Below, piece after piece: positions 11,731 through 49,866 of a DNA stretch of 64,000 nt. This DNA comes from Aequorivita sp. H23M31 (GTDB taxonomy: Bacteria > Bacteroidota > Bacteroidia > Flavobacteriales > Flavobacteriaceae): assembly GCF_004022485.1 (NCBI RefSeq), contig NZ_CP034951.1, positions 744,001-808,000 on the forward strand, written 5' to 3'. Numbering within the stretch: position 1 is the first letter of the stretch; every line of letters begins with the position of its first letter. The notes beneath the pieces were generated by a model, which had not been told where the DNA came from, did no database searches, and was given only the letters and a program-made list of their open reading frames with translations. The translations under genes were made by a program, and so were the position numbers.

Positions 11731-11813
11731 TTTTAAATTAAAAATTATTATTGAGGGTATAGAACGGGTTCTAAGGTTTTATATTTCAATCGAGTCTATT
11801 TAATTCTGTACCC

Positions 11814-12932: not shown

Positions 12933-12978
12933 TCCTTTTCCTAGTGGCTAGGTTTGTTAGCTAGCCCCAACTGTGTTA

Positions 12979-15896: not shown

Positions 15897-15934
15897 ATTT
15901 CGTTAGCTTTTTGGCTCTTATTAGGCAATGTTTT

Positions 15935-27166: not shown

Positions 27167-28552
27167 CATTGTTGTCCGATAAAAATCTAAAGTAGCAAAA
27201 ATAGCATTGTCGTTGCCATATTTTACTGGATTGTGTTCCGATTTTCAAAACAGAACCCCCTAAGGATCGAAAAAGCTCAATTGGCCAATGTTTTTTGTGG
27301 TGATTTCTTCCCATTTGGAGTCTGGGTTTTTCAGGAACTTGAACAGATCGATGTAGGTCATCAAATGGTAGCGTATTACAGACACCATATTTGAATATGC
27401 CCAACTTCTCTGCGCCTTTCTTTGTATTACCAGCATTATGAGTTGAATGATCAGACTGACCCAGATCTGTATCTCTATTGCATTTTGGTTGTCGCCCAGA
27501 AAGTATTTGAGGGGAAAGTTCTGTTTTAGGCGTTTGAACATGGTCTCTATCTGCCAGCGATTTTTGTAGATATCAGTGATCCTGTCGGCCTCCACTTCAT
27601 AGTTGTTGGTGATGAACTCATATACCTTGCCCTTCTCCTGGTGCCAAAAGGCTATCCGCCGTAGGTGGAATTCGTTGCCTTCCTTATCGGCAAGCGTTAT
27701 TTTTTCATCCTTTAGGACAGCATCGTCCACGTTGTCCGGAATATCAAACTCTTCAAGGCTCGTATAGCGTGCATTGCTCTTTTGCCTGGTCACAAAGTAG
27801 ATGCCATCCAACGTCCATTGCTCGTATTGCTGATAATCTACGTATCCTTTGTCAAAGACAACATAGGAACCCTTCTTTAGATCGAGTTCTTTCAAAAACG
27901 TATGATCGTGCGTCGCGGCATCTGAAAATTTTATCAGACAAGGAACATCCTCCATGGCGTTGATCATCGTGTGCATTTTTATCCCGCCCTTCTTCTTGCC
28001 GTTGAGCGGGTTCCGGCCAACACCCCTCAATATGTCGCTAAAGAGCGCTATTGTCGAGGAATCGACTATTTTGAGGCCTTTTATGGCGGGCTCCCTGGTT
28101 CTGCTGTCCGATAAAAACCGGTGGTAACGTTTATAGAGACCAGAGTAAATATCAGCAAAGACCTCTGCACTTCTTCTTTTGTTGGCATCGGACAACGTAC
28201 TGCGTTTTGGAAAGTCCCGTAGCCCTAAATGGTTGATCTTGCCCTCGCACGCCAGCATTATGCTTGTTACTTCGCGAAGTGAGTTGCAGCCACTGATAAC
28301 GGCGAATATCATCGTAACCAAGTGATCATAGGTCGTGAACTTTTTGGTGTACCTGTCGCTGTTGTGCTTCTTTGCTGTCCGATAAATATCTTTGGCGTCA
28401 AGGAAGTTTAAAACCTGTTTGATAATAGGTTGTCCACTGAAATTTTTACTTTTGTTCATATCTCGAGTTTTGTGGTAAAAACTAAGATATAAATAAAGCG
28501 GGAAATCCTTCTTGGAAATCCCGCTTTTAAAAATGTTTATCGGACACTACTG
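27167..28552 (-). mobile_element. IS4-family insertion sequence, copy 2 (1386 bp)
   Basis: Same length, ends and inner sequence as copy 1 at 17171-18556, in the same orientation. The target duplications differ between the copies, so each inserted on its own. Confidence 0.92.
27260..28459 (-). CDS. IS4-family transposase (copy 2)
   Basis: 399 aa, identical in translation to the transposase at 17264-18463, with all DDE residues present (KIVDSSTI, VVFDKGYVDY, YKNRWQIETMFKRLKQN). Reads toward the 532-aa exported protein gene. Confidence 0.93.
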   Translation of the reverse strand: MNKSKNFSGQPIIKQVLNFLDAKDIYRTAKKHNSDRYTKKFTTYDHLVTMIFAVISGCNSLREVTSIMLACEGKINHLGLRDFPKRSTLSDANKRRSAEVFADIYSGLYKRYHRFLSDSRTREPAIKGLKIVDSSTIALFSDILRGVGRNPLNGKKKGGIKMHTMINAMEDVPCLIKFSDAATHDHTFLKELDLKKGSYVVFDKGYVDYQQYEQWTLDGIYFVTRQKSNARYTSLEEFDIPDNVDDAVLKDEKITLADKEGNEFHLRRIAFWHQEKGKVYEFITNNYEVEADRITDIYKNRWQIETMFKRLKQNFPLKYFLGDNQNAIEIQIWVSLIIQLIMLVIQRKAQRSWAYSNMVSVIRYHLMTYIDLFKFLKNPDSKWEEITTKNIGQLSFFDP

Positions 28553-28756: not shown

Positions 28757-29678
28757 ATGAAAAAAAAATGACACCCTTATCCAAAGGGCAATTATTTCCG
28801 TTCCAGAGTTTGCAACACTCTACCACAAACTCAAACGATCTGTTGAGCTCGCTGGCAAAAGCCAGAGCACCCTTACCAACTATGCCCGCTGTTTGGCACA
28901 CATCGCACTCCATTTTAACTGTAGCCCACTTGAGCTCGATGAGGAACAGATCTTGGACTATCTGCACGTTTTAAAGTCACAGCACAAGACCCCTTCGGAC
29001 AGTTTTTTCAAGCACACCGTTTATGGTCTTCGCTATGCCTACCGCATCTTCGGGATGAAAGAGATGCACGTGGTGCTCCCGAGCATCGAACGTCCCAAGA
29101 AACTCCCCGTTGTGTTGAACCAAAGGGAGATAAAACAACTGCTGAAGACCCCTAAACTGCTCAAGCACCGATTGATACTTGCGATGCTCTATGGTTGTGG
29201 GCTCCGCAATTTTGAACTCCGCAACCTACAGTGCAGGGACCTGGACTTTGACCGAAAGATGGTGCACGTGCGCCAGGGCAAAGGACGCAAGGACCGGTAT
29301 GTTCCCCTGTCCGAGATGCAGATCCGTGGTCTAAAGAAGTACTTCTTGGCGGAAAACCCCACTACCTGGTGCTTTACCGGCAATGATAAAACAGGCAGTC
29401 CTGCACAGCTTTCCTCACAGGGAATACAATGGATCGTACGTGAGGCCCGCAAGCAAAGCGGGATCCCAAAGGAGATCACCGCCCATATTCTGCGCCACAC
29501 TTATGCCACCCATCTCTTGGAAATGGGCCTGGACATTATGAGCGTGAAGGATCTCTTGGGGCATGCGGATATCCAGACTACGCTTATCTACCTTCATGTG
29601 GCACAATCGGGTAGGCAAAAGCCATTCAGTCCGCTGGATAGGCTTTATGGCAATAGGGATGTCCTGTCCCGATCATGA
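28757..29678 (+). CDS. Tyrosine recombinase of the IS91-like element, start frame interrupted at A9
   Basis: Site-specific recombinase. The continuous frame from TTG at 28893 gives 261 aa with the catalytic set: Arg in YGCGLRNFELRNL, Lys in GKGRKDRYVP, HILRHTYATHLL (H-x-x-R) and GHADIQTTLIYLH with the nucleophilic Tyr. Upstream sequence in the same frame encodes a sensible SAM-like N-terminal domain (SVPEFATLYHKLKRSVELAG, KSQSTLTNYARCLAHIALHF) that reaches back to 28769. The only ATG, at 28757, is followed by nine A's and then TGA; with eight A's it would read in frame. Either ribosomal or polymerase slippage on A9, an indel, or a base-call error. Partner of the transposase that overlaps its 3' end. 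Confidence 0.82.
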
Positions 29679-30813
29679 AGTAGCGCACGTATTGGAGCGC
29701 AACAGGGAGAGCCTTGCCGATCTTTGTGCCAACAGCTGGCAAGCACGCACCCTGCACGCCCTTCGCAAGTGCCGCACCGCGGCCCTGGGCGGCCACATAG
29801 ACGGTTGCGACAATCCTACCTGCCATAAGCTCCATCTCAGTTACAACAGCTGCCGCAACCGTCATTGCCCCAAGTGCCAGGGACACAAAAAGGAGGAATG
29901 GATCCGGGCAAGGGAGGCAGATCTATTGAACGTTTCTTACTTCCACGTGGTCTTTACCCTGCCCTGTGAACTGAACCAATTATGTCTGTACGAGCCAAAA
30001 TTGGTGTACGACCTTTTGTTCAAAACGGCCTGGGGCATCATTGGGGATTTTGGTGCCAACCCCAAGCTCTTGGGCGCCAAGATGGGCATGGTCGCCATCC
30101 TGCACACCTGGGGCCAGAACCTCTCGTTGCACCCACACCTGCACTGCATCGTTCCCGGGGGCGGGATCACCCAATCCGGCAAATGGAAACATGCCAAAAG
30201 CAAGGGAAAGCTTGGCTGCCGAACGGCACGCTACCTGTTCCCTGTAAAGGCAATGGGCAAGGTCTTTAGGGCCCGTTTTGTAGCTGGCCTGCGCAAGGAA
30301 CTGGGGAAATCAAAGCCCCCTTCATTTTACGAAAGCCTGTTCAGGCACAACTGGGTGGTCTATTGCAAACGTCCATTCTTTAGGCCCTCGCAGGTAGTGG
30401 AATACCTGGGGCGCTATACCCATAAGATCGCCATAAGCAACCATCGGATAAAAAGCCTGGAAGATGGAAAAGTAACGTTTATGGTAAAGGATTATCGGCA
30501 AGGGGGCAAAAAGTCGATACTCGGCCTGCCCGATGCCGAGTTTATCAGGCGGTTTTCATTGCATATCCTGCCCAAGGGGTTTACCCGTATCAGGCATTAC
30601 GGCATCTTGAGCAGTTATTATAAGCGAACTATTATCCCAGAATTACAAGAAGTGGTTGGCAAACCAGAGCTTGCGGAAACAGAGCCTTTGATGCACCGCA
30701 AGTGTCCGGCCTGCAAGAAAGGCAACCTGGTCACCATCGCGACCTTCCCCGCCCGGGGACCACCGCAACACTGGCAAGAACAAATCAAAAAACAGTTAAA
30801 CAGGCCCATTTAA
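29647..30813 (+). CDS. IS91-family (Y2/HUH) transposase
   Basis: 389 aa from ATG 29647 (ATG 29659 is equally possible; an upstream extension to 29563 overlaps the recombinase and is unlikely). N-terminal zinc ribbon CRNRHCPKCQGHKKEEW (C-x4-C-x2-C type), then the HUH-like histidines in LSLHPHLHCIVPGGG, and the C-terminal two-tyrosine region around YLGRYTHKIAISNHR. A second Cys pair lies at the C-terminus (HRKCPACKKGN). It nicks and moves the element by rolling circle. Overlaps the recombinase by 32 nt. Confidence 0.9.
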   Translation: MAIGMSCPDHEVAHVLERNRESLADLCANSWQARTLHALRKCRTAALGGHIDGCDNPTCHKLHLSYNSCRNRHCPKCQGHKKEEWIRAREADLLNVSYFHVVFTLPCELNQLCLYEPKLVYDLLFKTAWGIIGDFGANPKLLGAKMGMVAILHTWGQNLSLHPHLHCIVPGGGITQSGKWKHAKSKGKLGCRTARYLFPVKAMGKVFRARFVAGLRKELGKSKPPSFYESLFRHNWVVYCKRPFFRPSQVVEYLGRYTHKIAISNHRIKSLEDGKVTFMVKDYRQGGKKSILGLPDAEFIRRFSLHILPKGFTRIRHYGILSSYYKRTIIPELQEVVGKPELAETEPLMHRKCPACKKGNLVTIATFPARGPPQHWQEQIKKQLNRPI

Positions 30814-32201: not shown

Positions 32202-33581
32202 TCAAATTAAGTTGCTGATATTCAGGTTGTTTTTAAACCCTAGGTCCTCTGGTTTCAATTCAAATTTATCCATTTGTTTTTTAATGCGGTTCACTAGTCC
32301 GAGTTTTCTTTTTTGGTCCAGGAACAAGTATTGTTTCGGAGGCTGATATTGGATTTTTTTTGTGATCATGTTCCATATAATTACTGCGAGTTTTCGAGCC
32401 GTTGCACTCACTGCCGAATGCCTTCCCTTGCGGTAGGCGACCCTTCGGAAAAAGTCGGATAGATGGGTGCCCTTTAGGTTGCCTATGGCATTGGCCGCTT
32501 GGCGCAGGGCGATCTTTAGCCGGTTACTTCCCTTAGGCACTCTGTTGCTTAGTATTTTCTTTCCTGATATCTTATTATTGGGCGCTAGCCTGAGCCAGGA
32601 AGTAAATTGTTTAGATGAGCCGAACTTATTGAAGCCCTCGGGACCTATCTCGCTCATAATGGTCAATATCGTGGAGTGGCTCAATCCTTCGATGGCAAAG
32701 AGATCAACCCCGTCAAAATAGCGGAAAGCTATTTGGTTCAGATCTTTGATCTGTGGTGCATTTTTGTTCATCCTCTTATGCGGCTTTTCAGTTGTTTTCA
32801 TTTTCCCGCGCTCAGGATGCTGTTTCAGTTCTTGCTTTATAAAATGTTCGATCTTTTTGTCGCAGTCCGCAATCTTTTTTTGAAAGAACTTATAGGCCTC
32901 GAACTCTTGTTGTAGTCCAAAGAGATAGTCAGACCGGTTGTTGCCGTGGAGTGCACTGGCAATTTCTTCTTTTGGTTTTCTGCAGTTGTAGTGGCGGTGC
33001 TCGGCTAGACTAAGGGGATCAAGGTTGCCCTTGCAGATATCCTCAATGATCTTCATGCCTGTAAGGCCACATACGTCCTTGACCACTACGTCCAATCTAA
33101 AGTTCAATAGTTTTAGGTACTTCTGCATCTTGTGCGTAGCCGAAGCGGCCAGATCTATCCAGTTTCCCCTTTGGCGACAGAATGTCCTCAACTGTTCGGT
33201 TGTAAGATCTGGTAGGAAGCTGCCGCTGAGCAACCCTAGGGTGTGGAGTTTCTGTATCCATCGGCAATCCTTAACGTCTGTTTTTTTACCCTTGGCATTC
33301 TTGGTGAACTTTCCATTGGCCAGCACCACCTCAAAACCGAAGGAGATAAGCTCTACGTACAGGTTTTGCCAATAGTCTCCAGTGGACTCCATTGCCACTG
33401 TGGTCACGTCAGATTCCATGAGCCACTGGCAGAGTGCTGTGAGATCTTCGGCATAGACCCCGAATTCCCTTACATTGTCTAGTTCTTGGCCAATGGCCAC
33501 ATAGTGGGAGCGGCTGCCCACGTCGATTCCGGCGGCATTGAAATTTACAACGTCCATGCCGAGTTTCATTTTTCTTTCCAT
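32202..33581 (-). CDS. IS110-family transposase (DEDD recombinase)
   Basis: 459 aa. N-terminal RuvC-like DEDD domain: first Asp in GIDVGSRSHYVAIG (about 19), Glu in AMESTGDYW (about 65), and the Asp pair in KTDVKDCRW (about 100). C-terminal Transposase_20 domain with EGLSHSTILTIMSEIG and the conserved Ser in LRLAPNNKISGKK. IS110 enzymes insert via a structured bridge RNA encoded in a non-coding end of the element. The gene is intact. Element borders are not visible because IS110 elements have no clear inverted repeats. Confidence 0.92.
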   Translation of the reverse strand: MERKMKLGMDVVNFNAAGIDVGSRSHYVAIGQELDNVREFGVYAEDLTALCQWLMESDVTTVAMESTGDYWQNLYVELISFGFEVVLANGKFTKNAKGKKTDVKDCRWIQKLHTLGLLSGSFLPDLTTEQLRTFCRQRGNWIDLAASATHKMQKYLKLLNFRLDVVVKDVCGLTGMKIIEDICKGNLDPLSLAEHRHYNCRKPKEEIASALHGNNRSDYLFGLQQEFEAYKFFQKKIADCDKKIEHFIKQELKQHPERGKMKTTEKPHKRMNKNAPQIKDLNQIAFRYFDGVDLFAIEGLSHSTILTIMSEIGPEGFNKFGSSKQFTSWLRLAPNNKISGKKILSNRVPKGSNRLKIALRQAANAIGNLKGTHLSDFFRRVAYRKGRHSAVSATARKLAVIIWNMITKKIQYQPPKQYLFLDQKRKLGLVNRIKKQMDKFELKPEDLGFKNNLNISNLI

Positions 33582-39270: not shown

Positions 39271-39468
39271 ATGAAGTCAGATCGAGTGTGCATATTCCCA
39301 AAAGACGTCCAACGCATCACTGGAAGAAGTGAGCGATATGGTAGGCTCCTACTCCACCAGATCAGAAAGCATTTTGACAAGCAGCCTCATCAATTCGTCA
39401 CAGCTGAAGAATTCGCAGAGTTCACAGGGGTAGATTTAGAAACCGTAAAAGACTACCTTAAAGATTAA
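39271..39468 (+). CDS. Small HTH-like protein of duplicated module, copy 1
   Basis: 65 aa: VCIFPKDVQRITGRSERYGR, then LLLHQIRKHFDKQPHQFVTA and a EEFAEFTGVDLETV end. Two short helix-turn-helix-like units (DVQRITGRSERYGR and EEFAEFTGVDLETV) suggest DNA binding, like excisionases. A near-identical paralogue lies at 49071-49340, with nucleotide identity close to complete over about 150 bp. The two copies bracket the WYL/HerA/dynamin island. ATG at 39271 is preceded by an AT-rich leader with repeated GTATAGAT. Confidence 0.68.
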   Translation: MKSDRVCIFPKDVQRITGRSERYGRLLLHQIRKHFDKQPHQFVTAEEFAEFTGVDLETVKDYLKD

Positions 39469-39489
39469 TAAATCTCATTAAATTATAGG

Positions 39490-39618
39490 AACCCTAATCA
39501 GACACCTCTCTTAAATAAAAGAAGCTAAGAGTTTGATTATCAATATATCATTTACGAGGTGTCGTTCAGTCATCTTGGACTAACGGAAAATGATCTAGCT
39601 TGGCTAGATTATTTTTTA
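39490..39618 (+). ncRNA. Structured non-coding segment, module copy 1
   Basis: Directly after the small gene: GACACCTC (39501-39508) pairs with GAGGTGTC (39556-39563); a CGTTcAGTC/GACTaACG hairpin follows (39563-39584); then a terminator AATGATCTAGC-TTG-GCTAGATTATT with TTTTT (39589-39618). The second module has the same order of hairpin and terminator with different stem bases. Could be a trans-acting RNA or a long structured 3' UTR. Confidence 0.5.
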
Positions 39619-39861: not shown

Positions 39862-40758
39862 TCAATACTTCGCAATTGCGTTTTGCAATTCTTTCCTGAT
39901 ATCTTCCCTTACCCAATTAGGTTCCAAAACCTCAAGTAAACTTCCGTATTTTAAAAGTTGCTGCTTGAGCTCGAAATTATAACTAACGAATAATTTAATA
40001 GTATAAAAATCTTCCAATCCATCTTTCAACTCTTCTTGCGATCTGTGGAGTTTTAAAGATTCTAAATATGGTTTTTGACTCAAGTGGAAACGTAAAATCA
40101 TTCGGGTTGGTTCGTAGTCACTGAAATTTAAACCAACCGTATGTAATAGCTTCTCGTTAGCTTCTTCGGTTTTGTTTATAAAAGGTTTGTTGTCCAAAAC
40201 TTGTAACCCCATAATTCTATCGAGACCGAATACACGAAATCCATTGTCTGTCTCCCCTACTACATACCATCTGTTTTGATATTCCTTAAGCAGATGTGGT
40301 TTTATTTTATGGGTTCTTGGCTCGCTTCTATCTGTATGGTAAAAACTGGTATGCTGAAAACTGATTTCATTTCTATTCTTTATTGCTTCTAAGATTTTAT
40401 CAAAATATTGAAAGTTCTTCACCAAGCTGGTTTCATCCAGAGACAGATATTTATGAGTATCCTTTTCCAAAGTGATGCTTTTGTTGAGCAAATTTGAAAG
40501 AGCAATACGCTTAAAGATATTGGTCAACAACGAAAATTCCTCCGTGTCATCAATGTCCAGTTTATAGCCCTTGGTTTTTGTGTTGTGAATTTTAAAACCA
40601 ATACTGACCAAAAACTGGTAATCTCTATTTAAGGACGATGTCGAAAAACTTAAACCTTCTCTTTTTAATCCTGCTTCAATTTCTTCGGAAGTCACCAAGC
40701 GGTCCGCCGCTTCTAAAAGCTCTAAAAAAACCAAATATCGTCTAATGTCTTTGCTCAT
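39862..40758 (-). CDS. WYL-domain transcriptional regulator
   Basis: 298 aa: N-terminal winged HTH (about 1-65, LVTSEEIEAGLKREGLSFST), WYL domain (about 140-200, containing KEYQNRWYVVGETDNGFRVF then GLDRIMGL) and a WCX-like C-terminus. Proteins of this layout (BrxR, CapW) bind an inverted repeat as dimers and repress phage-defence operons until a ligand is sensed. Here the inverted repeat TTTCCCACTATCTGGGAAA lies 19 bp upstream of its own start and an identical-arm copy lies before the operon at 48350. It is divergent from two small membrane-protein genes. Autoregulation and control of the operon are strong inferences. Confidence 0.88.
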   Translation of the reverse strand: MSKDIRRYLVFLELLEAADRLVTSEEIEAGLKREGLSFSTSSLNRDYQFLVSIGFKIHNTKTKGYKLDIDDTEEFSLLTNIFKRIALSNLLNKSITLEKDTHKYLSLDETSLVKNFQYFDKILEAIKNRNEISFQHTSFYHTDRSEPRTHKIKPHLLKEYQNRWYVVGETDNGFRVFGLDRIMGLQVLDNKPFINKTEEANEKLLHTVGLNFSDYEPTRMILRFHLSQKPYLESLKLHRSQEELKDGLEDFYTIKLFVSYNFELKQQLLKYGSLLEVLEPNWVREDIRKELQNAIAKY

Positions 40759-40776
40759 AATAGTTACATTTCAATC

Positions 40777-40795
40777 TTTCCCACTATCTGGGAAA
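40777..40795. promoter_or_regulatory. Operator TTTCCCA-N5-TGGGAAA, copy 1
   Basis: TTTCCCACTATCTGGGAAA in the 79-bp divergent promoter region between the WYL gene and the 56-aa gene. Perfect 7-bp arms, 5-bp spacer. The same arms with the same spacing occur once more, at 48455-48473. Confidence 0.85.
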
Positions 40796-40837
40796 AGTAC
40801 AGTCTAAATTTGTTGGAAACAACAAAAACAAAGTATT

Positions 40838-41008
40838 ATGGACTTACAAAAATCAGAATTAGATCAATTAAGCCGCTTATTACAAAGCGGAATGAACACC
40901 TCAAAAGAAATCGCAGAAATTTCTGGACAGGATAAAGTTACAGTGACACTTTTTACATTGGGATTAACAATGGTTGTGGCTGGGTTGCTTCGCGCTGTCA
41001 ATGAATAA
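40838..41008 (+). CDS. 56-aa single-pass membrane protein
   Basis: ATG 40838 to TAA 41008. Starts MDLQKSELDQLSRLLQSG, with a polar helical half and a C-terminal membrane segment (VTLFTLGLTMVVAGLLRAV). Divergent from the WYL gene and downstream of the operator, so probably under its control. Small single-span proteins in defence loci are often membrane-disrupting effectors or their regulators; function here is inference. Followed 69 bp later by another small membrane gene. Confidence 0.7.
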   Translation: MDLQKSELDQLSRLLQSGMNTSKEIAEISGQDKVTVTLFTLGLTMVVAGLLRAVNE

Positions 41009-41077
41009 TAAATTATTGGTATCAGCCCAAAGGCCAATTCAAAAAATCGAGTAGGCAAAATACAAAATATTAATATT

Positions 41078-41248
41078 ATGAATGACGAAAAAACAACTGA
41101 AGGTAAGATTGTTGCAGCCATCGGAGCTGCAGGAGCCGGCGTTGGCGCCCTAATTGCTGCTTCCGCAGGAATTGCATTTGCAATACCAATTGCTCTTGGA
41201 GCGGGTATAGCTTGCATAGGTTATGCGGTGGTTAAAGCCCAAGCCTAG
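41078..41248 (+). CDS. 56-aa Gly/Ala-rich membrane protein
   Basis: ATG 41078 to TAG 41248. Short polar start (MNDEKTTEGK) followed by about 40 residues of Gly/Ala/Ile with GxxxG-type spacing (AAIGAAGAGVGALIAASAG), enough for one long or two short membrane spans. Composition recalls bacteriocin-like and holin-like pore formers and the glycine zipper in the HerA-like protein of the same locus. Probably co-transcribed with the previous 56-aa gene; a terminator follows at once. Confidence 0.72.
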   Translation: MNDEKTTEGKIVAAIGAAGAGVGALIAASAGIAFAIPIALGAGIACIGYAVVKAQA

Positions 41249-41252
41249 ATTT

Positions 41253-41291
41253 ATAAACCCTGAAGTTTGAGGCTTTGGGGTTTAATTTTTA
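41253..41291 (+). terminator. Terminator of the two small membrane genes
   Basis: AAACCC-x-GAAG...CTTTGGGGTTT with a following AATTTTT: an imperfect stem and U-run 5 bp after the second stop codon. It separates this unit from the convergent operon. Confidence 0.65.
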
Positions 41292-41364
41292 CTTCTCATT
41301 TGATCCTCAATAGATTTACTCTCTCCTAATTTTAAGAAACGAACTTTATTAAGATCAACTTCTC

Positions 41365-41808
41365 TTATAACATTCTAGACAATATTTCCTTCACTTTCTG
41401 CTGAATCCCTTTATCCGCTCGAGCAATTGCGTGTCTTGCAAATGCGACGTTTATTCCGTGATTAGAGACATTACTAGAGTTAGCCAGCCAATCTTCCATT
41501 CTCATCTTCCCTTTTGACTGGTTAATAGTGCGTAAAGTAACGGCAACATTCTCAGGACAGTTTACAACCTCTGCAATTTGAGAGTTAGTTAAGCGGTCTC
41601 GATAAGCCATAAAAACAGCTTCTGAAGAACGTATGTGCTCATAATCATATCTATCGCCACCACGCAGAGCCTGTCCAGTATAACAATCAGTATAGAGTGC
41701 TATTCCGTCTCCACCTCTCTCCAAAGCCTGTTGATGCATTTGTGCTTTTACTTTTGTGAATAGTAGGTCTATTTCTGCGCGGTGATAGGGGCGGGGCGGG
41801 TTATTCAT
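41365..41808 (-). CDS. HNH-endonuclease-like protein, last gene of the operon
   Basis: 147 aa. Residues 40-108 carry an HNH-type pattern: DCYTGQALRGGDRYDYEHI with His58 (YEHI in place of DHI), then VNCPENVAVTLRTINQSKGK with Asn87 and N96-x-x-K99, then MEDWL. The C-x-x-G ... EHI ... N ... NxxKg-x-x-W order is that of small HNH nucleases. Without a structure the metal site is not certain. It is the last gene of the six-gene operon, 12 bp after the coiled-coil protein, and the only candidate nuclease effector in the locus. Confidence 0.6.
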   Translation of the reverse strand: MNNPPRPYHRAEIDLLFTKVKAQMHQQALERGGDGIALYTDCYTGQALRGGDRYDYEHIRSSEAVFMAYRDRLTNSQIAEVVNCPENVAVTLRTINQSKGKMRMEDWLANSSNVSNHGINVAFARHAIARADKGIQQKVKEILSRML

Positions 41809-41820
41809 AGTTTGTATAAT

Positions 41821-42357
41821 TTATTCAGCACCCTCTCCTTCTTCTAAATCATCCATCTCATCAATTTCAAGAGCTTCGGCATTTAGCATTGTTAATAAGT
41901 CTGGACTTACCCCCAATTCTTTTAACTTATCTTGTATTTCTTGTATCTGAGTTAGTACCTCTTTAAATTTTTCTAGTCCGTCTTTTATTTCTGAAAGAAA
42001 ACTAGACTCTAATTTCTCACTTATTTCTTTTGCTACCTCATTTACATTTTCTGTAACCTCATTTACTTCCTTGACCTCTTCTGTTGGATTTTCTATGACA
42101 GCCTCAGAATCTAACTCTACTTTCTGTTGAACAGCATCTAATTTCTGCGCGGATTCTGTTAATTCATTTTGGCTTTCCGGAGATAAGACTTTGTCAAGTT
42201 CCTTAAATGCAGATTCTTTAGCAGTTTCAATACTACCTTTTAATACTTCACTAATGTTCTTACCTGCTTTAATATCGTTTAAGGTTCTGTGACCCGTTTC
42301 CTTTAAAACTTTTTCCCCAATTTCTTTCGCTGCAGCTATTACTTTGTCTAATGCCAT
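41821..42357 (-). CDS. Acidic coiled-coil protein
   Basis: 178 aa, very rich in Glu, Lys, Val and Ser. Long heptad patterns (EVKEVNEVTENVNEVAKEIS, KEVLTQIQEIQDKLKELGVS) and a strongly acidic end (EIDEMDDLEEGEGAE). No family recognised; likely a scaffold or partner that binds the ATPase or nuclease. Its start overlaps the HerA-like gene's stop by 10 nt, so it is translationally coupled to it. Confidence 0.65.
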   Translation of the reverse strand: MALDKVIAAAKEIGEKVLKETGHRTLNDIKAGKNISEVLKGSIETAKESAFKELDKVLSPESQNELTESAQKLDAVQQKVELDSEAVIENPTEEVKEVNEVTENVNEVAKEISEKLESSFLSEIKDGLEKFKEVLTQIQEIQDKLKELGVSPDLLTMLNAEALEIDEMDDLEEGEGAE

Positions 42358-45300
42358 AATTTAATATTTGTTAGTTTATGATTACTTTCAAGTTTTTTCA
42401 ACAAATGAACCACATATTTTAAAATAGGTTCAACATCTCTTTCCCCTGTGATACTTATTAATTTTTTCAATAATTCAATTTTCAATTTACTATTAGTCTT
42501 GGATTCCCATTCTTGTCTTAACAAAAAATCCAAACCAATAACTTCGTGAATAAAATCTGCATCACGATTAGTCATTTCTTTGGTTCTTTCATATTCTAAT
42601 ATAATATAAAGAACCTCTTCCACCTTGTCCTTTTTATCCGAAACCTCAATGTGGAAAAACCCATCATTTTGTGATTCAAACTTGTCAAACTTACATAGAA
42701 TTGCTTCCTGCCAATCGTTTTGATATATCGCCGCAACTCCAGTTTCCAGTTTTGCTAATTCTTTGATTTGGTCATCGGAAAGATTCATAGCACTACCTAC
42801 TAACTTTCTATCTTCAAAGTCAGGTAATCGCAAGCAAATTTTAGTGTTGGTATTTCGAATAACCGACATATCTAAGAGTCCTGGTGCTTGGTCTGCAATT
42901 ATAAAACCTTCACCATAAGTGCGCATCTCGGCAATAGCATTAGATATCATTTCTACAGATTTACCTGCTAAATTTGCACTAGATGATGATTGTTCTGAAG
43001 ATGTTCTTTTTAATAAATTATGAGCTTCCTCAATTATAGTTATGTGTTTTAGGTCACTATTACTTTGAGACTTATTTGCAATTCGATATTCATTTAGTCT
43101 CATAAATAAAATTCCCATAAATAGAGCCTTTCCTTCTGAAGAAGCTACACGAGATAAATCTACAATCACATTTTTGTCAAATAAATCTTCATCCGAAATA
43201 CAAACATCAGTAAAAATTAATTTATTCAAACCATTGGTCATACTTCGAACACGAGAAACTAATGCACCTTCATAATTACTTTTAACTTCTTCAGAAAACT
43301 TACTTTGAGCAATTACGTTTTCCAACGACTTTAATAAATCTGAAAATAAAGGATATTGTGTTTTTTCTGCAATACATCTAGATTCCTCGAGTAACCAGCC
43401 TTTTGATATATAAGCATCTTCAATAGCGTCCTTAAGGATATTAGGCATTGCAGCTTCCATTGGCCAACACGCATTCAGAATTTCGATAAATCGATCTATG
43501 TGTTCATATATGTGAATACTTTTAGGAAATGAAAACGGATTAATTCTTAATAATTCAGTTTCCGAAGAATTAGTGCCATATACCGACACATCTTTTCTTC
43601 CGCCAAACTCTTCTTTATATTCTCCTTTAGCTGGTTCTATTACAAGAAAGTTAATGCCTTCATCGCAAAGCTTATCTATTAAATTATAAGTAACATTAGA
43701 CTTTCCAGAACCTGTACTGCCAGTAACGAAAACGTGACTCGTGAATTTATTAAGATCTAATAAAATATCGTTATTTAGCTTTTGCTCATAATTATATAAC
43801 TGACCAATCTTAATATTATTTTTAACCTCTTTTTTTGGGTTGTTTCCAAAAGGTATTATTTCTACCACATCTAATCCTACCACTGACTTATGAGGAAAAT
43901 TCATTTGAACCGTAAGTTCATCTGTAGTAATCGCTTGGGCTAAAAATCCGAAATCTACAATTCTTGGAACTTCATATCTCTGTAAATAGGCTACAACTTT
44001 ATCCTTTTCAGATTTATTAATAGAATTAAAGGTTTTGATTGCAGCCGTTTCAAAGTTAGATTCAGCGCCTTTAGTAATACCATTGTAAATATTAGCAGCA
44101 ATAATACTATTTTGCTCTTCATCGGATACGAAGTAGACCCCAACATTCCAGAACCCAACTCCTTTTCCTTGTACTAAGCGCTCGATTTGTTTATCTAATT
44201 GATCTAAAAAGTTAGATGCTCTTTTGTTGGTATATGTTTTTTGTCTAGAGTTAGAAGTTCCTGACGTATTACCTTTAACATTACCATCTGTATCGGTATG
44301 TCCCTCAGTTAAGCCGTCTGTTTCACTTTGACTCTCTGCGCCTGCCTTACTACCTTCTGCTTTGTCTTTTAAATCTAAACCTTCACTAAGTTCTTTTCCT
44401 TTATCTAATGCAGCTTTACCTCCGATTATTGCTCCTGGAGCTCCTGCCACTACAGTTCCTAAAATTGCTCCTCCTAAACCAGTGCCATATTTAACAGCAC
44501 CTTTAACACCTTTTTCTAATCCTTTTGAAAGTGAATCTGCAGTTTTAGAACCTGTTCCAAAAAAGCCATTCATCATTTTTCTGCCAATCCAAGGAGAAGA
44601 GTTAGTAGTTTTTGTCTCACTTGTCCCAACAGTTGTACTTTGTGAAGTTGAAGTTGTTTTGCTCGTGGAATAGCTTATGGAATCTGAAATTGAAGTGTTT
44701 TCGCCTTCCGTAACCACAAATTCTTTTTCACTTGACAAAACACTATAAATTTGCTCGTAAGTATCTAGAGTCAGTTCTACTTGTTCTGATGAAACTGGGT
44801 CTGCAATAAAAAAAGCTGAAAAGGGCTTTCCGTTCATTCCTAAAATGAGATTTTCTATTCCTTGAAAAAATTGATCTTCTTCTTTATCCTTTATTGAAGG
44901 AATTCCAACAACAGCAGTTACTTCCTTACAGTTATTAAAAATTTTATTATTAATATCTAGAACTTCTTGATTACCCAGATATTCCTTATCATTTGAAAAT
45001 TTGGTTCCAGGAAAGTTTCCTTCTAATGCTCCTTTTAAAACTTTTGCTTTTTCATTGACCTTTACACCGGACTTAACTCCGACATATAAATTACATTCTG
45101 TACCGTTTGAAACAATTTTAAAAATTAATGAGCTATCAACAGAATGCAGCGTAGTAAATACAGATTTTAGCTTATTGGTTATCTTAACATCTTTTTCATA
45201 AACAAATTTTTGTATTTGCAAAAAGCGTATTTTACGCTTAATCTCGTCCGTGGAAATCTGGGACAACAAAGCTTCATTCTTTAATTTATCTATGGATAAA

Positions 45301-45410
45301 ATGCTTAAATGATCATCGCGTAAATATTGTTTTTGTAAATCGAATTTTATATCAATTAAATTTACAGGTGCCGTTACCCTTTCTTCTAGGTTTAATAATT
45401 CTTCACTCAT
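42348..45410 (-). CDS. HerA/DUF87-type ATPase with glycine-zipper insert
   Basis: 1020 aa. N-terminal domain of unknown type (1-235), a Ser/Thr-rich linker (about 238-272), a Gly/Ala-rich hydrophobic zipper (about 303-335, GTGLGGAILGTVVAGAPGAI) that could insert in membrane, another low-complexity polar linker (350-395), then the ATPase: Walker A GSTGSGKS at 564-571, IEPAKGEYKEEF (590-601), Walker B ITIIEEAH at 790-797, and FIIADQAPGLL. This is the HerA/FtsK-like DUF87 order. HerA ATPases form hexamers and in known antiphage systems pair with SIR2 or DUF4297 effectors; here the partners are a dynamin and an HNH-like protein. Starts within the stop of the 140-aa gene (1-nt overlap). Confidence 0.85.
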   Translation of the reverse strand: MSEELLNLEERVTAPVNLIDIKFDLQKQYLRDDHLSILSIDKLKNEALLSQISTDEIKRKIRFLQIQKFVYEKDVKITNKLKSVFTTLHSVDSSLIFKIVSNGTECNLYVGVKSGVKVNEKAKVLKGALEGNFPGTKFSNDKEYLGNQEVLDINNKIFNNCKEVTAVVGIPSIKDKEEDQFFQGIENLILGMNGKPFSAFFIADPVSSEQVELTLDTYEQIYSVLSSEKEFVVTEGENTSISDSISYSTSKTTSTSQSTTVGTSETKTTNSSPWIGRKMMNGFFGTGSKTADSLSKGLEKGVKGAVKYGTGLGGAILGTVVAGAPGAIIGGKAALDKGKELSEGLDLKDKAEGSKAGAESQSETDGLTEGHTDTDGNVKGNTSGTSNSRQKTYTNKRASNFLDQLDKQIERLVQGKGVGFWNVGVYFVSDEEQNSIIAANIYNGITKGAESNFETAAIKTFNSINKSEKDKVVAYLQRYEVPRIVDFGFLAQAITTDELTVQMNFPHKSVVGLDVVEIIPFGNNPKKEVKNNIKIGQLYNYEQKLNNDILLDLNKFTSHVFVTGSTGSGKSNVTYNLIDKLCDEGINFLVIEPAKGEYKEEFGGRKDVSVYGTNSSETELLRINPFSFPKSIHIYEHIDRFIEILNACWPMEAAMPNILKDAIEDAYISKGWLLEESRCIAEKTQYPLFSDLLKSLENVIAQSKFSEEVKSNYEGALVSRVRSMTNGLNKLIFTDVCISDEDLFDKNVIVDLSRVASSEGKALFMGILFMRLNEYRIANKSQSNSDLKHITIIEEAHNLLKRTSSEQSSSSANLAGKSVEMISNAIAEMRTYGEGFIIADQAPGLLDMSVIRNTNTKICLRLPDFEDRKLVGSAMNLSDDQIKELAKLETGVAAIYQNDWQEAILCKFDKFESQNDGFFHIEVSDKKDKVEEVLYIILEYERTKEMTNRDADFIHEVIGLDFLLRQEWESKTNSKLKIELLKKLISITGERDVEPILKYVVHLLKKLESNHKLTNIKLWH

Positions 45411-45832
45411 TAACTTAAAGCTTTAAAGATTAAATATCCTGCAATTAATACAACACCACCAATTATTACCTTTTTCAAAATTTCGTTATTCACTGAGGGT
45501 AGATCCGATTTATCAATGTCTTCTTGTTCTGGAAAAGTTTCCTTGAATAATCCTACCAATAGATAATATCGTTCTTTAGAATAATTTTCACGCATATTCC
45601 ACTTCTCGTCAGAGAAGTAATCTTGCTTGTCGGTTTTATTTGAAACTTCTATCTCTTTATGTGCTCCAAAATTAAAGTCGCTATTATTAATAGCGTATTC
45701 AACTGCCTTATTAATCTCATTTTTATCTCCTTGAAGAAAAAATATATTATCAATCAAAGTTCTCTTAATTTCATTTATATCATTTTCTTTTACACTTCCA
45801 ATAAAACTCTCATTTTCTGTAAATTCTCTCAT
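45410..45832 (-). CDS. Tail-anchored membrane protein
   Basis: 140 aa, soluble acidic N-terminal part (EFTENESFIGSVKENDINEI) and one C-terminal membrane span (about 120-138, KVIIGGVVLIAGYLIFKALS) ending at the stop, so the body faces the cytosol. No family recognised. It starts 4 bp after the dynamin stop and its stop overlaps the HerA-like start by 1 nt. Likely the membrane anchor of the complex. Confidence 0.7.
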   Translation of the reverse strand: MREFTENESFIGSVKENDINEIKRTLIDNIFFLQGDKNEINKAVEYAINNSDFNFGAHKEIEVSNKTDKQDYFSDEKWNMRENYSKERYYLLVGLFKETFPEQEDIDKSDLPSVNNEILKKVIIGGVVLIAGYLIFKALS

Positions 45833-45836
45833 TACA

Positions 45837-48089
45837 CTATTGTATTTTAAATTTCAAGATGGTATTTGAAATCTCAATTAATTTTTGCAACTCATTTTGT
45901 ATTTCTTTCTCATTCCTAGTTAGTTCATCATCGGAAGTTTTATAAACACTATTTTTGGATTCTTCAAAGGATTTCTTAACAAGAGTCTGAAAGGCAATGT
46001 TATATTCCTGAAATATCTTTTCAGAAGCATTTTCACAATTCTTTATTAAAGCTTCAAATTCCTTAATTTTAGGTTCAATTTTATCATTGTAAAATTTTGA
46101 AACATTAATTACTGTTGTTTCTATTGAATAAACTTCTATATATACAATGGTATCTTCTATCCCAAATAACCTTTTATACCATTTTTCACTTTTAACTTTT
46201 TCTTCTACCGTTCGTTGTTTGTTTTCTGTTTCTGTTTCTTTATACCCATTTATCTGTTTGATGTCTAAAATGTTAATTTTATTAAGTAATTGAGCATTAA
46301 AAGATTTTTGTTCAAAACTTTGGTTTTTTAGATTAAACTTATTACCAACCTTCTTTTTTAAATTTTGCAGATAATTTTGACCTTCATCATTTATTTTTGC
46401 CACTATATCCGTTTTTACACTTACTTCTAATTCAGAAATTGTGTTATTGACCCATTCTACTAATCGTTTTGCCTCAAAGGGACTAAGATTAGTTTTTGTG
46501 GATTTAGCTTTCAGCTTATCAAATGCCTGATCTGTCTTCCTAGTTGCATCTTGAATGAATTTTTTATTAACTTTAACACTAGCTATTTCTTGCAAAGCTT
46601 GATCTTTTCTAATACTTAATTCCTCTTCTTCCTTTTTCTTTCTCTCTTCGATTTTTTTTTGCTCGTCAACTGTTTTCTCTTCTAGATTTTTCTTTTCTAA
46701 GTCAATTTTAGATTTAATTTCATCGAATACATTATTTGCAATGCTCATCAAATCTCTATATTGAATTTTTTGATGATGATTTGCAATATAATCTTCGATA
46801 TATAACTTTAAAGCCGCTAGTCCAGAATATACTAAATCTGCATCTAATTCACTTTTTGTAATTCTTTCTTTTAAGTGTGCTTTTTGTTTTATAGTTAGAG
46901 GCGCATAGTCAATAAGTTGATAGCCTTTATAGTTTTTTTCAGGAACTGGAGTAAACTTATGTCTATAACCAGTTAATTCACCTACCTCATCATGATTTAG
47001 GGTCCCATTTAATTGTGCTAGTTTAGCGTAACTTGAACTTATAGGAAAAACACAAGGATTCTTAATTCCAAATTTCCCCAAGAACTTATAAACTTTCTCT
47101 AAAATCTCGCTAAATGACTTATTGCCTAGTTTTTCACAATCTACCTTATTGTATATAAATACGATTCTATCAAGATTTTGTTTTTGTTCTTTAAACTGAT
47201 TACTTATTGCCTTCAATGTAAAATTATCATCATTAGAGTCCATCTTTTCAGGGTCTAAAACATATAGTACAATCGGCAGGTCTTGGTTATCCTTTAAATA
47301 CCCCTGTGTTTTCAATTTATGATTTTCAAATTGAGCACTATTTGGTCCTGGTGTGTCAATAAAGTTCAATTCCATTCCAGATGAATTTAAATCTTTAATA
47401 GGGCCCTCCAAGCATAACTCTAACTCTGGATCTTTCTCTTTGTTAGCATATGTATTCCATTTTTCAAAAAAGGGTTTTATTTCATCACTTGTTTCATCAA
47501 GTATCTTATTACCTTTAATTGCCCTAGCAGTGAATTTATCAGAATCCTTTATTTTAATGGTACAAATGGTTCCAGTAGCTGTCCCGGTATCTTCAAATAA
47601 TATGTTTTTCCCTAAAATCGCATTTAACAAAGTTGATTTCCCAGAGCTCATTGTGGCAATGACAGGAACTTCAACCTTATTACTTCTTAAACTTTTAACT
47701 CTATCCTGGTTAGGTTTTATAGCGTTTGTTATAATTGGCTCGTTCGATTTTAAAGTATAATCTATAAAAGCGTCAACGGCATTATGTCTTTCCATAACTC
47801 TTCTATCATCAATAAAGTTTATTTTTCTTTTATTAATAAAGTTTTTTTCTATTTCTAAAATAGATTCAATAAAGTCCTTTTCATATGAATCACAACCATA
47901 TATTTCAATCGAGAACTTGTCATTATTGGTTGCATCTTTAACTCCTTTAATAAAACCCTCGAACCAATCTGTAATCCTTTTATCCTTATTCTCTTCTATA
48001 GATTGTTTTAAATTATTTTCTATTACTTTATCTGTGCATTCAATTTGAGAAACAAATGATACGGTATCATAATTTATTATTATTTTCAT
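45837..48089 (-). CDS. Dynamin-like GTPase
   Basis: 750 aa. GTPase domain at about 135-400: P-loop MSSGKST at 147-153 (preceded by VPVIAT), the switch Thr in TGTATGTICT (168-177), G3 DTPG at 245-248, and G4 NKVD at 314-317. The rest is two long helical bundles, including a charged coiled coil near residues 475-520 (QKKIEERKKKEEEELSIRKD) typical of dynamin stalks. The first 130 residues are an unrecognised N-terminal domain. Bacterial dynamins remodel or guard membranes, and some serve in phage defence. Second gene of the operon, 51 bp after the 69-aa gene. Confidence 0.88.
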   Translation of the reverse strand: MKIIINYDTVSFVSQIECTDKVIENNLKQSIEENKDKRITDWFEGFIKGVKDATNNDKFSIEIYGCDSYEKDFIESILEIEKNFINKRKINFIDDRRVMERHNAVDAFIDYTLKSNEPIITNAIKPNQDRVKSLRSNKVEVPVIATMSSGKSTLLNAILGKNILFEDTGTATGTICTIKIKDSDKFTARAIKGNKILDETSDEIKPFFEKWNTYANKEKDPELELCLEGPIKDLNSSGMELNFIDTPGPNSAQFENHKLKTQGYLKDNQDLPIVLYVLDPEKMDSNDDNFTLKAISNQFKEQKQNLDRIVFIYNKVDCEKLGNKSFSEILEKVYKFLGKFGIKNPCVFPISSSYAKLAQLNGTLNHDEVGELTGYRHKFTPVPEKNYKGYQLIDYAPLTIKQKAHLKERITKSELDADLVYSGLAALKLYIEDYIANHHQKIQYRDLMSIANNVFDEIKSKIDLEKKNLEEKTVDEQKKIEERKKKEEEELSIRKDQALQEIASVKVNKKFIQDATRKTDQAFDKLKAKSTKTNLSPFEAKRLVEWVNNTISELEVSVKTDIVAKINDEGQNYLQNLKKKVGNKFNLKNQSFEQKSFNAQLLNKINILDIKQINGYKETETENKQRTVEEKVKSEKWYKRLFGIEDTIVYIEVYSIETTVINVSKFYNDKIEPKIKEFEALIKNCENASEKIFQEYNIAFQTLVKKSFEESKNSVYKTSDDELTRNEKEIQNELQKLIEISNTILKFKIQ

Positions 48090-48140
48090 TCTTTTGGAAA
48101 TTTTGTTTTATTATTAAGACAAATCCTTTAATCTAGATAT

Positions 48141-48350
48141 CTAAACGGTTCTATACTCCATATACCCCATACTCAAATACCCCTCAGATTTCAAATCCAA
48201 CCCATGAACCCTCATAAAAGCCTTATGAATTTTCTCAACTTCATCAAATGGATTGGAGCACATTGTGCTCACTTGAACAGATAATCCTTTGTCCACAAAT
48301 TCTCCCTTTACGGTCATTGGTATCTTTGTTTTGATTTCGAAAACTGCCAT
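48141..48350 (-). CDS. DUF6140-like small protein, first gene of the operon
   Basis: 69 aa: MAVFEIKTKIPMTVKGEFVD, then KGLSVQVSTMCSNPFDEVEK and a LKSEGYLSMGYMEY end. This pattern (short strands, KGxxVxVxSxxSNP, LGxL-x-MGYxE) fits a small Bacteroidota family I associate with DUF6140, of unknown function. It leads the six-gene unit; the operator copy lies 105 bp upstream of its start. The family number is from memory and should be checked. Confidence 0.65.
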   Translation of the reverse strand: MAVFEIKTKIPMTVKGEFVDKGLSVQVSTMCSNPFDEVEKIHKAFMRVHGLDLKSEGYLSMGYMEYRTV

Positions 48351-48454
48351 AAATGCTTTATTTTAATTTTATTACTTTTCTATTATTCACCTTATTTTAT
48401 TTTTCATTCTCCAAAAACAACGTTCAGTTCTTTTATGCAATAATAAAAATTTCC

Positions 48455-48473
48455 TTTCCCATATATTGGGAAA
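48455..48473. promoter_or_regulatory. Operator TTTCCCA-N5-TGGGAAA, copy 2
   Basis: TTTCCCATATATTGGGAAA upstream of the six-gene operon. The arms are identical to the site at the WYL promoter; only the 5-bp spacer differs. Confidence 0.85.
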
Positions 48474-49070: not shown

Positions 49071-49340
49071 TTGCAATTGAAAATGATTCCTTTAAGTAAA
49101 ATAGGATCGATAACTACCGAAAGTGTAAAAAAGATTGAAAATGAAGTAAAAACTGACGTGTGCATATTCCCAAAAGACGTCCAACGCATCACTGGAAGAA
49201 GTGAGCGATATGGTAGACTCCTACTCCACCAGATCAGAAAGCATTTTGACAAGCAGCCTCATCAGTTCGTCACAGCTGAAGAATTCGCAGAGTTCACAGG
49301 AGTCAATATTGAGACCGTAAATGAATACCTCAAGAATTAA
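49071..49340 (+). CDS. Small HTH-like protein of duplicated module, copy 2
   Basis: 89 aa, or 85 from the second Met (MIPLSKIGSITTESVKKIEN). The last 60 residues are nearly identical to the 65-aa protein at 39271 (VCIFPKDVQRITGRSERYGR onwards); the N-terminal 28 residues are unique to this copy. The last codons diverge too (GVNIETVNEYLKN versus GVDLETVKDYLKD). High nucleotide identity in only the central part points to recent duplication with decay outside, or gene conversion. Confidence 0.68.
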   Translation: MQLKMIPLSKIGSITTESVKKIENEVKTDVCIFPKDVQRITGRSERYGRLLLHQIRKHFDKQPHQFVTAEEFAEFTGVNIETVNEYLKN

Positions 49341-49436
49341 CAAATTATAGCAAATTCTATGAGAAATAGAATTCCAATAATTCGTATCTTTAACTCAGAA
49401 TCGATTTGAACCAAGTACAATGGCCATCAAATTGAA

Positions 49437-49594: not shown

Positions 49595-49789
49595 TTTGTA
49601 GGATTTCGCGAATAAAAAATGAGAACGCGATGAGCGTTCATTTTCCATTTGCAAGGAGGATTTATTAAGATCCTGTAAATCTTATAACGTTAAATGCATT
49701 GCTTTTGTAAGTAAATGGATATAAAAAATGAGAACGCGATGAGCTTTCATTTTCCATTTGCAAGGAGGATTTATTAAGATTCTGTAAAT
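49595..49789. repeat. Two tandem 109-bp units after module copy 2
   Basis: Cores at 49612-49680 and 49721-49789, each TAAAAAATGAGAACGCGATG then CATTTTCCATTTGCAAGGAG, differ at only a few bases. A related single unit follows module copy 1 at about 39638-39735. Confidence 0.75.
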
Positions 49790-49866
49790 TTTGTAAACCT
49801 AATCAAGGCAAACACCATTTCACACCTAAGCCCTAAATCATACTGATATACAGGGTTTTCTTTCTG

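Follow-up and report, generated by a model that had tools for sequence, protein, structure and literature searches.

The Bacteroidota form of a widespread operon that combines dynamin-family GTPases with a HerA/VirB4-like ATPase

Several described systems share components with the locus analysed here, which lies in a window of 64,000 nucleotides from the genome of Aequorivita sp. H23M31. Like the HerA-nuclease complexes SIR2-HerA and DUF4297-HerA and like HerA-NurA, it encodes a motor of the HerA superfamily with intact Walker motifs, but the window motor is about twice as long, carries a Ser-rich insert and is in fold at least as near to DndH and VirB4 as to HerA, and the operon type adds a toxin/immunity slot as well as genes for dynamins and a tail-anchored protein. 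The candidate partner encoded beside the motor, an HNH-like protein termed HNH147, has a conserved motif without a significant fold match, whereas relatives of the locus feature clear nuclease families. Dnd (DndH) and MADS (mad8) possess similar motors, but no other Dnd or MADS gene was recognised in the operon, and the resemblance of the ATPase to VirB4 of type IV secretion is not matched by VirB6-B10 channel or pilus genes in the window operon (Pfam). Dynamin-family GTPases, usually two in tandem, are shared with Eleos/LeoABC, DynA and SynDLP; to our knowledge, few jobs of bacterial dynamins have been established. Membership in Eleos/Leo was rejected as the window dynamin has no PADLOC match to LeoA or LeoBC, and its partner genes differ from those of Leo. 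Parts of the PADLOC model PDC-M40B are matched by HNH147 and by two proteins from locus L096, but the window match is weak (E 2e-7, residues 72-143 only) and L096 contains neither dynamin nor motor. As in the polymorphic toxin systems described in PMC3482391, exchangeable toxins in the wider family are followed by SUKH, YezG-like and SUFU proteins, whereas the window has neither a variable toxin domain nor a recognised immunity gene downstream, HNH147 and then peptides on the opposite strand being next. The word "dynamin" does not occur (0 occurrences) in the accessible text of that survey (Zhang et al., 2012; PMC3482391). No PADLOC model in the version of 2023 fits the operon, the 750-aa dynamin has 0 matches there at E<=1, and neither a name nor a description was found in the accessible open-licence PMC literature. 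The statement of the initial annotation that this combination has no known name thus stands, with a newer name being possible.

The same annotation had reported a six-gene operon together with a WYL gene and two 56-aa peptides, and the gene set and coordinates (39862..48473) proved real when checked against the sequence. The operon is located on the minus strand and begins with the gene for a DUF6140 protein of 69 aa (48141..48350; PF19637, E 4e-11) that has homologues of 64-70% identity in loci L004, L094 and L097 (tblastn). Next come a dynamin-family GTPase of 750 aa with a system-specific N-terminal domain of about 130 aa (45837..48089; PF00350, E 3e-14), a tail-anchored protein of 140 aa (45410..45832; phmmer cluster c1), a HerA/VirB4/DndH-like motor ATPase of 1020 aa with a Ser/Gly-rich low-confidence insert at about residues 235-391 (42348..45410), an acidic coiled-coil-like protein of 178 aa (41821..42357) and HNH147 with 147 aa (41365..41808). 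A WYL/WCX transcriptional regulator of 298 aa (39862..40758, minus strand; PF13280, E 2e-10; PF25583, E 1e-7), 75% identical to its counterpart in L004, is linked to the operon in the manner of WYL-regulated loci of the BrxR/CapW type. The plus strand encodes a 56-aa peptide, divergent from the WYL gene, with a hydrophobic C-terminal segment as judged by eye (40838..41008) and a Gly/Ala-rich hydrophobic peptide of 56 aa, a membrane peptide by eye (41078..41248); ORFs 67% and 80% identical to them, respectively, occupy the same places in L004. This copy resides at the edge of an IS-rich stretch and between two 205-bp direct repeats, of which only two copies were found in the whole genome. The left one (39286..39490, plus strand) codes for a small ORF of 65 aa, while the right one (90%; 49158..49362, plus strand) is part of an ORF of 89 aa that weakly matches a Cox-like excisionase (PHROG 575, E 2e-4).

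Relatives were surveyed as the best 80 of at least 578 confirmed loci together with four plasmid hits selected among 43 records, a sample that leans to the closest relatives; three loci that were short or the window's own (L001-L003) were dropped from all family counts, and L098 (G335) stands outside the tree and the 84-locus counts. Within this sample, a dynamin ORF (E<1e-10) is present 5' of the ATPase gene in 60 of the 73 loci with at least 3.5 kb of upstream sequence, two or more occur in 55 of 73, and the tail-anchored family is found in 60 of the 80 relatives with 0.7 kb upstream. The co-occurrence of dynamin and ATPase put forward in the initial annotation is thereby borne out, while within the window's own family (397 genomes) it is thin, the ATPase (E<=1e-60) and the dynamin sharing 2 genomes, that of the window and a single further one. 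Control by a WYL protein, likewise proposed, is a common but not a universal trait, with a WYL-family ORF anywhere in the locus in 36 of the 62 sampled loci with 6 kb upstream. Judged from gene content and order, the typical operon consists, often after a WYL regulator, of one or two dynamin GTPases, a small tail-anchored protein, a HerA/VirB4-like ATPase and an effector slot, and the window locus is the Bacteroidota branch of this widely conserved arrangement. Among the thirteen loci without a dynamin ORF (L037, L041, L056, L073, L074, L087 as well as L044, L062, L066, L068, L069, L075 and L083), the last seven encode upstream proteins of 712-724 aa that fall into the dynamin cluster under single linkage and may be divergent dynamin relatives. 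The dynamin alignment (n=31) shows invariant G1 and G3 residues and a nearly invariant G4 NK, and a profile search of solved structures returned SynDLP and BDLP as nearest; the N-terminal domain of about 130 aa is found also in 7 ORFs that lack GTPase motifs. The 140-aa protein belongs to a cluster of 64 proteins (phmmer) sited one or two genes 5' of the ATPase gene, in whose alignment a conserved N-terminal part and a hydrophobic/Gly-rich tail at the C-terminus stand out by eye. The fold of the ATPase also resembles SIR2-HerA. Since VirB4 and DndH are no more distant from this fold than HerA, the DNA translocation proposed in the initial annotation is only a possible activity.

The initial annotation overlooked the slot after the ATPase gene, which holds a toxin and its immunity protein in most of the relatives examined and thus changes the meaning of the locus. 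Outside Bacteroidota the slot is occupied by interchangeable pairs, mostly WHH, LHH or other nucleases followed by SUKH, DUF6985 or other proteins. Matches among 82 slot proteins were to Colicin-DNase (43), WHH (43), LHH (15), Endonuclease_NS_2 (5), GH-E, Gln_amidase and NERD (2 each) and others; L051 and L064 have no first downstream ORF within 120 bases, and for L030 and L072 the toxin was taken to be the second ORF downstream. A second downstream gene is present in 78 of the 82 loci, and the 74 proteins scanned (set A4, which omits the second downstream ORFs of L004, L006, L030 and L072) matched SUKH families (38), DUF6985 (18), YezG-like (2), DUF7832 (2), Ank (1), SUFU (1) and others. From their position we infer that the DUF6985, DUF7832 and ankyrin proteins are immunity proteins. 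Toxin and immunity types are paired with a mutual information of 1.23 bits in 74 loci, the window, L004 and L006 being left out, as compared to a mean of 0.28 and a maximum of 0.58 in 2000 shuffles, and the slot type changes 32 times on the ATPase tree (n=83). Partners of the WHH toxins fall into two immunity clusters (23 and 19 loci), and the SUKH cluster is found with WHH as well as LHH toxins, so that the types are matched without a strict one-to-one relation. The family matched by two slot proteins is that of a papain-like glutamine deamidase and not of a nuclease; DNA-coupled cleavage is therefore not general. With regard to a shared trafficking domain, a motif noted post hoc in 22 of 83 N-termini was found in a mean of 6 and a maximum of 16 after shuffling and in 39 of 439 background ORFs, which include toxins.

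The coiled-coil protein and HNH147 fill the slot in the window and in three relatives, where no immunity gene was recognised. The 178-aa protein, with counterparts in L004, L005, L006 and L098, takes the position of the toxin gene of other phyla and forms, together with those of L004-L006, a clade-specific slot type of its own (T4); Pfam recognised no toxin domain in it. By eye, its N-terminus resembles other slot proteins. The idea that it is a shortened toxin whose docking segment is common to the slot proteins is unsupported, the controls of the N-terminal motif comparison having contained toxins. HNH147 is a probable nuclease and probably the effector, as suggested by the conserved motifs DCYTG, YDYEHI and N-SKGK and by invariant residues in the HNH motif of the alignment; its structure gave no Foldseek match at E<=0.001 and its profile only chance-like matches to solved structures. 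Apart from the entry of the window itself, the 120 listed of its 526 relatives (E<=0.001) show 70-91% identity, a narrow divergence unlike that which a polymorphic export toxin would display. In L121, the HNH-like domain forms the C-terminal part of a 371-aa protein, behind a beginning that resembles a lipoprotein and a hydrophobic helix further on, a topology that, by eye, suggests a position in the cytoplasm of the producer; joined behind a membrane helix, the domain would thus act in its own cell.

The best explanation, to which we assign a probability of about 50%, is that the locus represents the Bacteroidota branch of a membrane-anchored, self-acting conflict or defence system with a plug-in effector, its role most likely being to protect the cell or to fight rivals. 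The fixed membrane chassis would be formed by the dynamin(s), the tail-anchored protein and the motor of the HerA/VirB4 class. Dynamin(s) and tail-anchored protein would keep the motor attached to the inner membrane and detect an insult at this site, for which entry of phage DNA, envelope damage or an invading conjugative element are candidates. GTP/ATP hydrolysis would then free or load the nuclease, which would cut DNA in the same cell and kill the invader or the infected cell, while immunity proteins would restrain the more toxic variants, and the WYL protein and the small peptides would limit expression. Besides the co-occurrence, the slot data and the self-acting reading of HNH147 given above, points in favour are a motor fold like those of DndH and SIR2-HerA, the occurrence in bacteria with one and with two membranes, the lack of a Pfam match to an envelope channel in the window operon, the rarity in the window's family and the presence on conjugative plasmids. 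Polymorphic toxins are commonly classed as weapons of intercellular warfare, for which exchange of toxins and a cognate immunity gene are typical. The main rival, in our view somewhat unlikely, has the VirB4-like ATPase and the dynamins export a toxin through a pore or in vesicles while the downstream immunity protein protects kin. The toxin exchange and cognate immunity genes of the wider family are in line with such delivery, as is a motor equally near in fold to DndH and to VirB4, a secretion ATPase. However, in the window operon Pfam recognised no gene for an envelope channel, a needle or secretion, the toxin N-termini are short and without a clear shared trafficking domain (in an HMM comparison whose control set was contaminated with toxins), hosts with one and with two membranes are both represented, and the form found in Bacteroidota lacks a variable toxin as well as any recognised immunity gene.

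A bolder form of the self-acting conflict or defence system can be entertained tentatively, namely a phylum-spanning immune machine in which dynamins are membrane sensors and the motor arms toxin/immunity cassettes in most phyla, with an invariant HNH nuclease in Bacteroidota that is shared with several other membrane-linked systems. If true, membrane remodelling by dynamins, a translocating ATPase and polymorphic toxins would here be united for the first time in one system, and "warfare"-type cassettes would be interchangeable warheads of intracellular immunity. The operon joins dynamins, toxin/immunity cassettes and a motor of the HerA/VirB4 class, and it can now be tested which membrane event bacterial dynamins sense and whether such cassettes arm intracellular immunity, the Bacteroidota form, in which an HNH-like protein is conserved and no immunity gene was recognised, offering a natural contrast case.

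HNH147 also occurs with WYL-like genes in loci without dynamin or motor and so need not be the effector of this system, and the DUF6140 gene adjoins that of HNH147 in such loci as well. It is conceivable, though rather improbable, that DUF6140, HNH147 and WYL constitute a separate module into which the dynamin/motor operon was merely inserted, the two not working together. In L094 and L097, DUF6140 and HNH147 indeed bracket other cargo (681 aa and 679+171 aa, respectively), and HNH147 lies beside other cargo in L096, L121 and L122. Against this, the coiled-coil gene and then that of HNH147 directly follow the motor gene in all four sampled Bacteroidota motor loci that reach far enough (window, L004, L006 and L098), and the motors of L006 and L098 are only 49-56% identical to that of the window, indicating that the link between motor and HNH147 is old.

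The initial annotation further considered the locus a coherent system for defence or membrane surveillance. Coherence holds, as a conserved unit with a dynamin ORF upstream was encountered in the 60 of 73 loci mentioned above, but the part concerning defence finds little backing in the flanks. Among 120 flanking genes of up to 700 aa from 17 loci, the matches listed (25 of 28 families, possibly with repeats of one protein) comprise one each of AbiLi, PDC-S23, PDC-S05, AriA and WYL at E<=1e-20, as compared to one PDC-S04 in 123 genes from one arbitrary 12-kb stretch of each of the same 17 genomes, while mad3 was matched twice in flanks and four times in controls; a few flanking genes could belong to the operon core and have escaped the operon walk (e.g. 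L055:7590-8258). The flanks are thus barely richer in defence genes than the controls, and support from defence islands is weak.

Motor and dynamin were seen together in Bacteroidota, Bacillota, Pseudomonadota, Spirochaetota, one Leptotrichia and one Verrucomicrobia locus, and the system resides on conjugative plasmids in Escherichia and Lactococcus. That it is an addiction or exclusion module, with toxin and immunity retaining a mobile element or killing recipients of a rival one and dynamin and motor serving entry or segregation, is very improbable despite these plasmids, the recombinase-like genes (by eye) on IMG/VR contigs and the repeats at the IS-rich edge, because the large conserved NTPase machinery exceeds the needs of a toxin-antitoxin pair, motor relatives occur in only 43 of 72,556 plasmid records, none covering 80% of the motor, and the operon is present at near identity in 1 of 5,426 Escherichia coli genomes. 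A phage origin is not supported, with no dynamin relative in phage records and no relative of dynamin or HNH147 confirmed in viral contigs. A related motor is encoded on four IMG/VR contigs, and in three of these (L118-L120) Hsp70 is found beside a protein with the dynamin N-terminal domain and no GTPase (by Pfam in L118, by the sequence start in L119 and L120).

All genes listed in the initial annotation (39862-48473) are present at the coordinates given: six on the minus strand, a pair of 56-aa ORFs on the plus strand, and the gene for the WYL regulator. The operon encodes a 69-aa DUF6140 protein, a 750-aa dynamin, a 140-aa tail-anchored protein, a 1020-aa HerA/VirB4/DndH-like motor ATPase, a 178-aa coiled-coil protein and a 147-aa HNH-like probable nuclease (HNH147), and gaps of 51, 4, -1, -10 and 12 bases between successive genes identify it as one unit. 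The WYL gene had been described as facing the operon. It lies on the same strand at the operon's 3' end and is transcribed away from the pair of small ORFs instead, so this wording needs correction. Clear-scoring Pfam matches comprise DUF6140, Dynamin_N, DUF87/HerA and WYL/WCX, while the Pfam scan placed the 140-, 178- and 147-aa proteins in no confident family. PADLOC matched the motor to HerA and mad8 only and the dynamin to nothing. Text searches of open-licence papers found none that combines dynamin and HerA with polymorphic toxins or with SMI1, or dynamin with DUF87 and WYL; the two containing dynamin, HerA and anti-phage mention each separately in the relevant passages, and dynamin is absent from the searched text of the polymorphic-toxin survey PMC3482391.

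An ATPase profile search confirmed at least 578 loci with related motors in genome contigs, the best 80 of which were analyzed together with four plasmid loci picked from 43 matching plasmid records. Annotated Lactococcus and Treponema plasmids feature the order WYL, dynamin, dynamin, hypothetical protein(s), ATP-binding or DUF87 protein, HNH endonuclease and hypothetical or SMI1/KNR4 protein. An Escherichia plasmid shares this arrangement but has no WYL gene annotated, and on the Exiguobacterium plasmid a 658-aa protein precedes ATPase, HNH and SMI1/KNR4 genes. Among 5,426 E. coli genomes, a near-identical operon occurs in a single one, the bearer of the Escherichia plasmid. ORF analysis of the 73 best-relative loci with at least 3.5 kb upstream revealed one or more dynamins in 60 and two or more in 55; the remaining 13 have none at E<1e-10, and in seven of these upstream proteins enter the dynamin cluster by single linkage. 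Of 80 loci, 60 encode a member of the tail-anchored family to which the 140-aa protein belongs, and 36 of the 62 with 6 kb upstream have a WYL-family ORF. Six loci (L044, L062, L066, L068, L075 and L083) carry alternative genes upstream of the motor, encoding two 519-549-aa, two or three 315-419-aa and one 712-720-aa protein, and still the slot gene, i.e. the gene directly following the motor, downstream. Within the window's family (397 genomes), ATPase matches at E<=1e-60 and the window-type dynamin fall in the same two genomes, G335 and that of the window itself; genome G365 gives another dynamin match (E 5e-6), which belongs to a different dynamin locus. Immediately upstream of the G335 dynamin/motor locus (L098, 12627-19899), PADLOC recognizes a type I restriction enzyme (E 4e-44) followed in the same stretch by a TmtA-like protein (E 3.5e-243).

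Slot proteins from 82 loci matched Colicin-DNase (43), WHH (43), LHH (15) and Endonuclease_NS_2 (5), more rarely GH-E, papain-like glutamine deamidase and NERD (2 each) and a few others; an eight-protein cluster with an EVTS...K motif appears PD-(D/E)XK-like by eye. In the 74 loci scanned, the following protein belongs to SUKH families (38), DUF6985 (18), YezG-like (2), DUF7832 (2), ankyrin (1) or SUFU (1). Of these, PMC3482391 describes SUKH and SUFU as immunity families, and the title of PMC7033585 does so for YezG; by gene position, the DUF6985, DUF7832 and ankyrin proteins may act likewise. The pairing of toxin with immunity clusters far exceeds the chance level (mutual information 1.23 bits over 74 loci; mean 0.28 and maximum 0.58 in 2000 shuffles). 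On a tree of 83 motors, calculated by a quick method with SH-aLRT support only, slot type changes 32 times, against a minimum of 10 and a shuffled mean of 37.8 with none of 200 shuffles as low; slot types are therefore partly inherited and often exchanged.

In this tree the motors of the window and of the Bacteroidota loci L004, L005 and L006 form one clade (support 100), which, under midpoint rooting, joins loci from Pseudomonadota and Verrucomicrobiota with WHH, LHH or the unclassified toxin type (support 97). The slot of the window, L004, L006 and L098 holds a coiled-coil protein followed by HNH147, while the L005 sequence ends before it becomes readable. No immunity family was recognized in this Bacteroidota form, and no second dynamin was found in the window, L004 or L098, L005 and L006 being cut upstream. 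At 6339-6779, L006 has a second, degenerate HNH147-like ORF without the EH pair. An alignment of 34 HNH147 sequences shows invariant DCYTG, YDYEHI and N-SKGK residues. Six of 397 family genomes carry HNH147, as do six of 395 genomes at the level of the order, two of the latter with broken pieces; both counts include the window's genome. Elsewhere it accompanies PDC-M40B-like proteins (L096), a WYL-like gene only (L095) or four small genes opposite a WYL gene (L122); in L123, close to where the contig begins, it has no clear partner. In L094 (10370-12642) and L097 (6575-9808), DUF6140 and HNH147 flank homologous 681- and 679-aa proteins, 32% identical and without Pfam or PADLOC match, joined in L097 by a 171-aa protein; these loci possibly represent a further system. 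The L121 gene run (7026-10711) is a different HNH147 system: a DUF6140-like gene (by eye), WYL, a vWA protein with signal-like start, a membrane-tethered HNH147 fusion and free HNH147. The 371-aa fusion has a lipoprotein-like start, a hydrophobic helix further on and HNH147 at its C-terminus; judged by eye, this topology would place the HNH147 domain in the producer's own cytoplasm, and mainly for this reason we prefer a self-acting role.

A membrane-anchored immune machine that frees a nuclease inside its own cell is the reading we favor, with a probability of about 0.5, because nucleases dominate the slot, the Bacteroidota HNH147 is conserved, the L121 topology agrees and the bearers include one- and two-membrane bacteria. 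A machine delivering toxins, the other reading that fits, is less likely; toxin/immunity exchange at the slot, the papain-like toxins and the motor's VirB4 likeness speak for it. Defence-gene richness of the locus flanks is weak.

The G1 and G3 residues of the dynamins are invariant. Their N-terminal 130 residues behave as a separate domain, the profile of which matches 73 ORFs in the loci retrieved, a locus retrieved more than once being counted each time. Seven of these lack GTPase motifs by a simple pattern; those of L064 and L082 may be truncated or disrupted, and those of the IMG/VR contigs L118-L120 adjoin Hsp70-like genes (L118 by Pfam, E 3e-124, beside a TPR protein; L119 and L120 by eye). 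This suggests a modular adaptor that links different NTPases to the motor. The L118-L120 variant operon (about 7000-16800, near recombinase-like genes by eye) encodes a related motor, an acidic protein of ~165-183 aa, the dynamin-N-terminal-domain protein, which in L118 also has a bacterial Ig-like domain (Pfam), and Hsp70; a chaperone appears to take the place of the GTPase.

The window motor is 92% identical to that of Gelidibacter, the nearest named relative, which points to Flavobacteriaceae as the family of the window's genome. A 205-bp repeat (39286-39490 and 49158-49362), with no further copy found in the 3.68-Mb genome, brackets the locus. Lipid-kinase and sulfatase genes on its right are shared with G254, another genome of the genus; none of the ORFs left of them had a match in the 40-kb stretch of G254 used for comparison. 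Relative to this single genome, the locus lies on the margin of a variable island. The left side comprises the type I methylase HsdM and a 1213-aa YobI-type P-loop NTPase (156-7071), two 399-aa transposase ORFs with identical start about 10 kb apart (17264-18463 and 27260-28459; the one Pfam-scanned is DDE_Tnp_1), and IS91-like (29563-30813) and IS110 (32202-33581) elements in a stretch of raised GC. Two 76-nt direct repeats, 95% alike and spaced by 109 bases, occupy 49612-49796; a third match, more remote (62%), lies at 39659.
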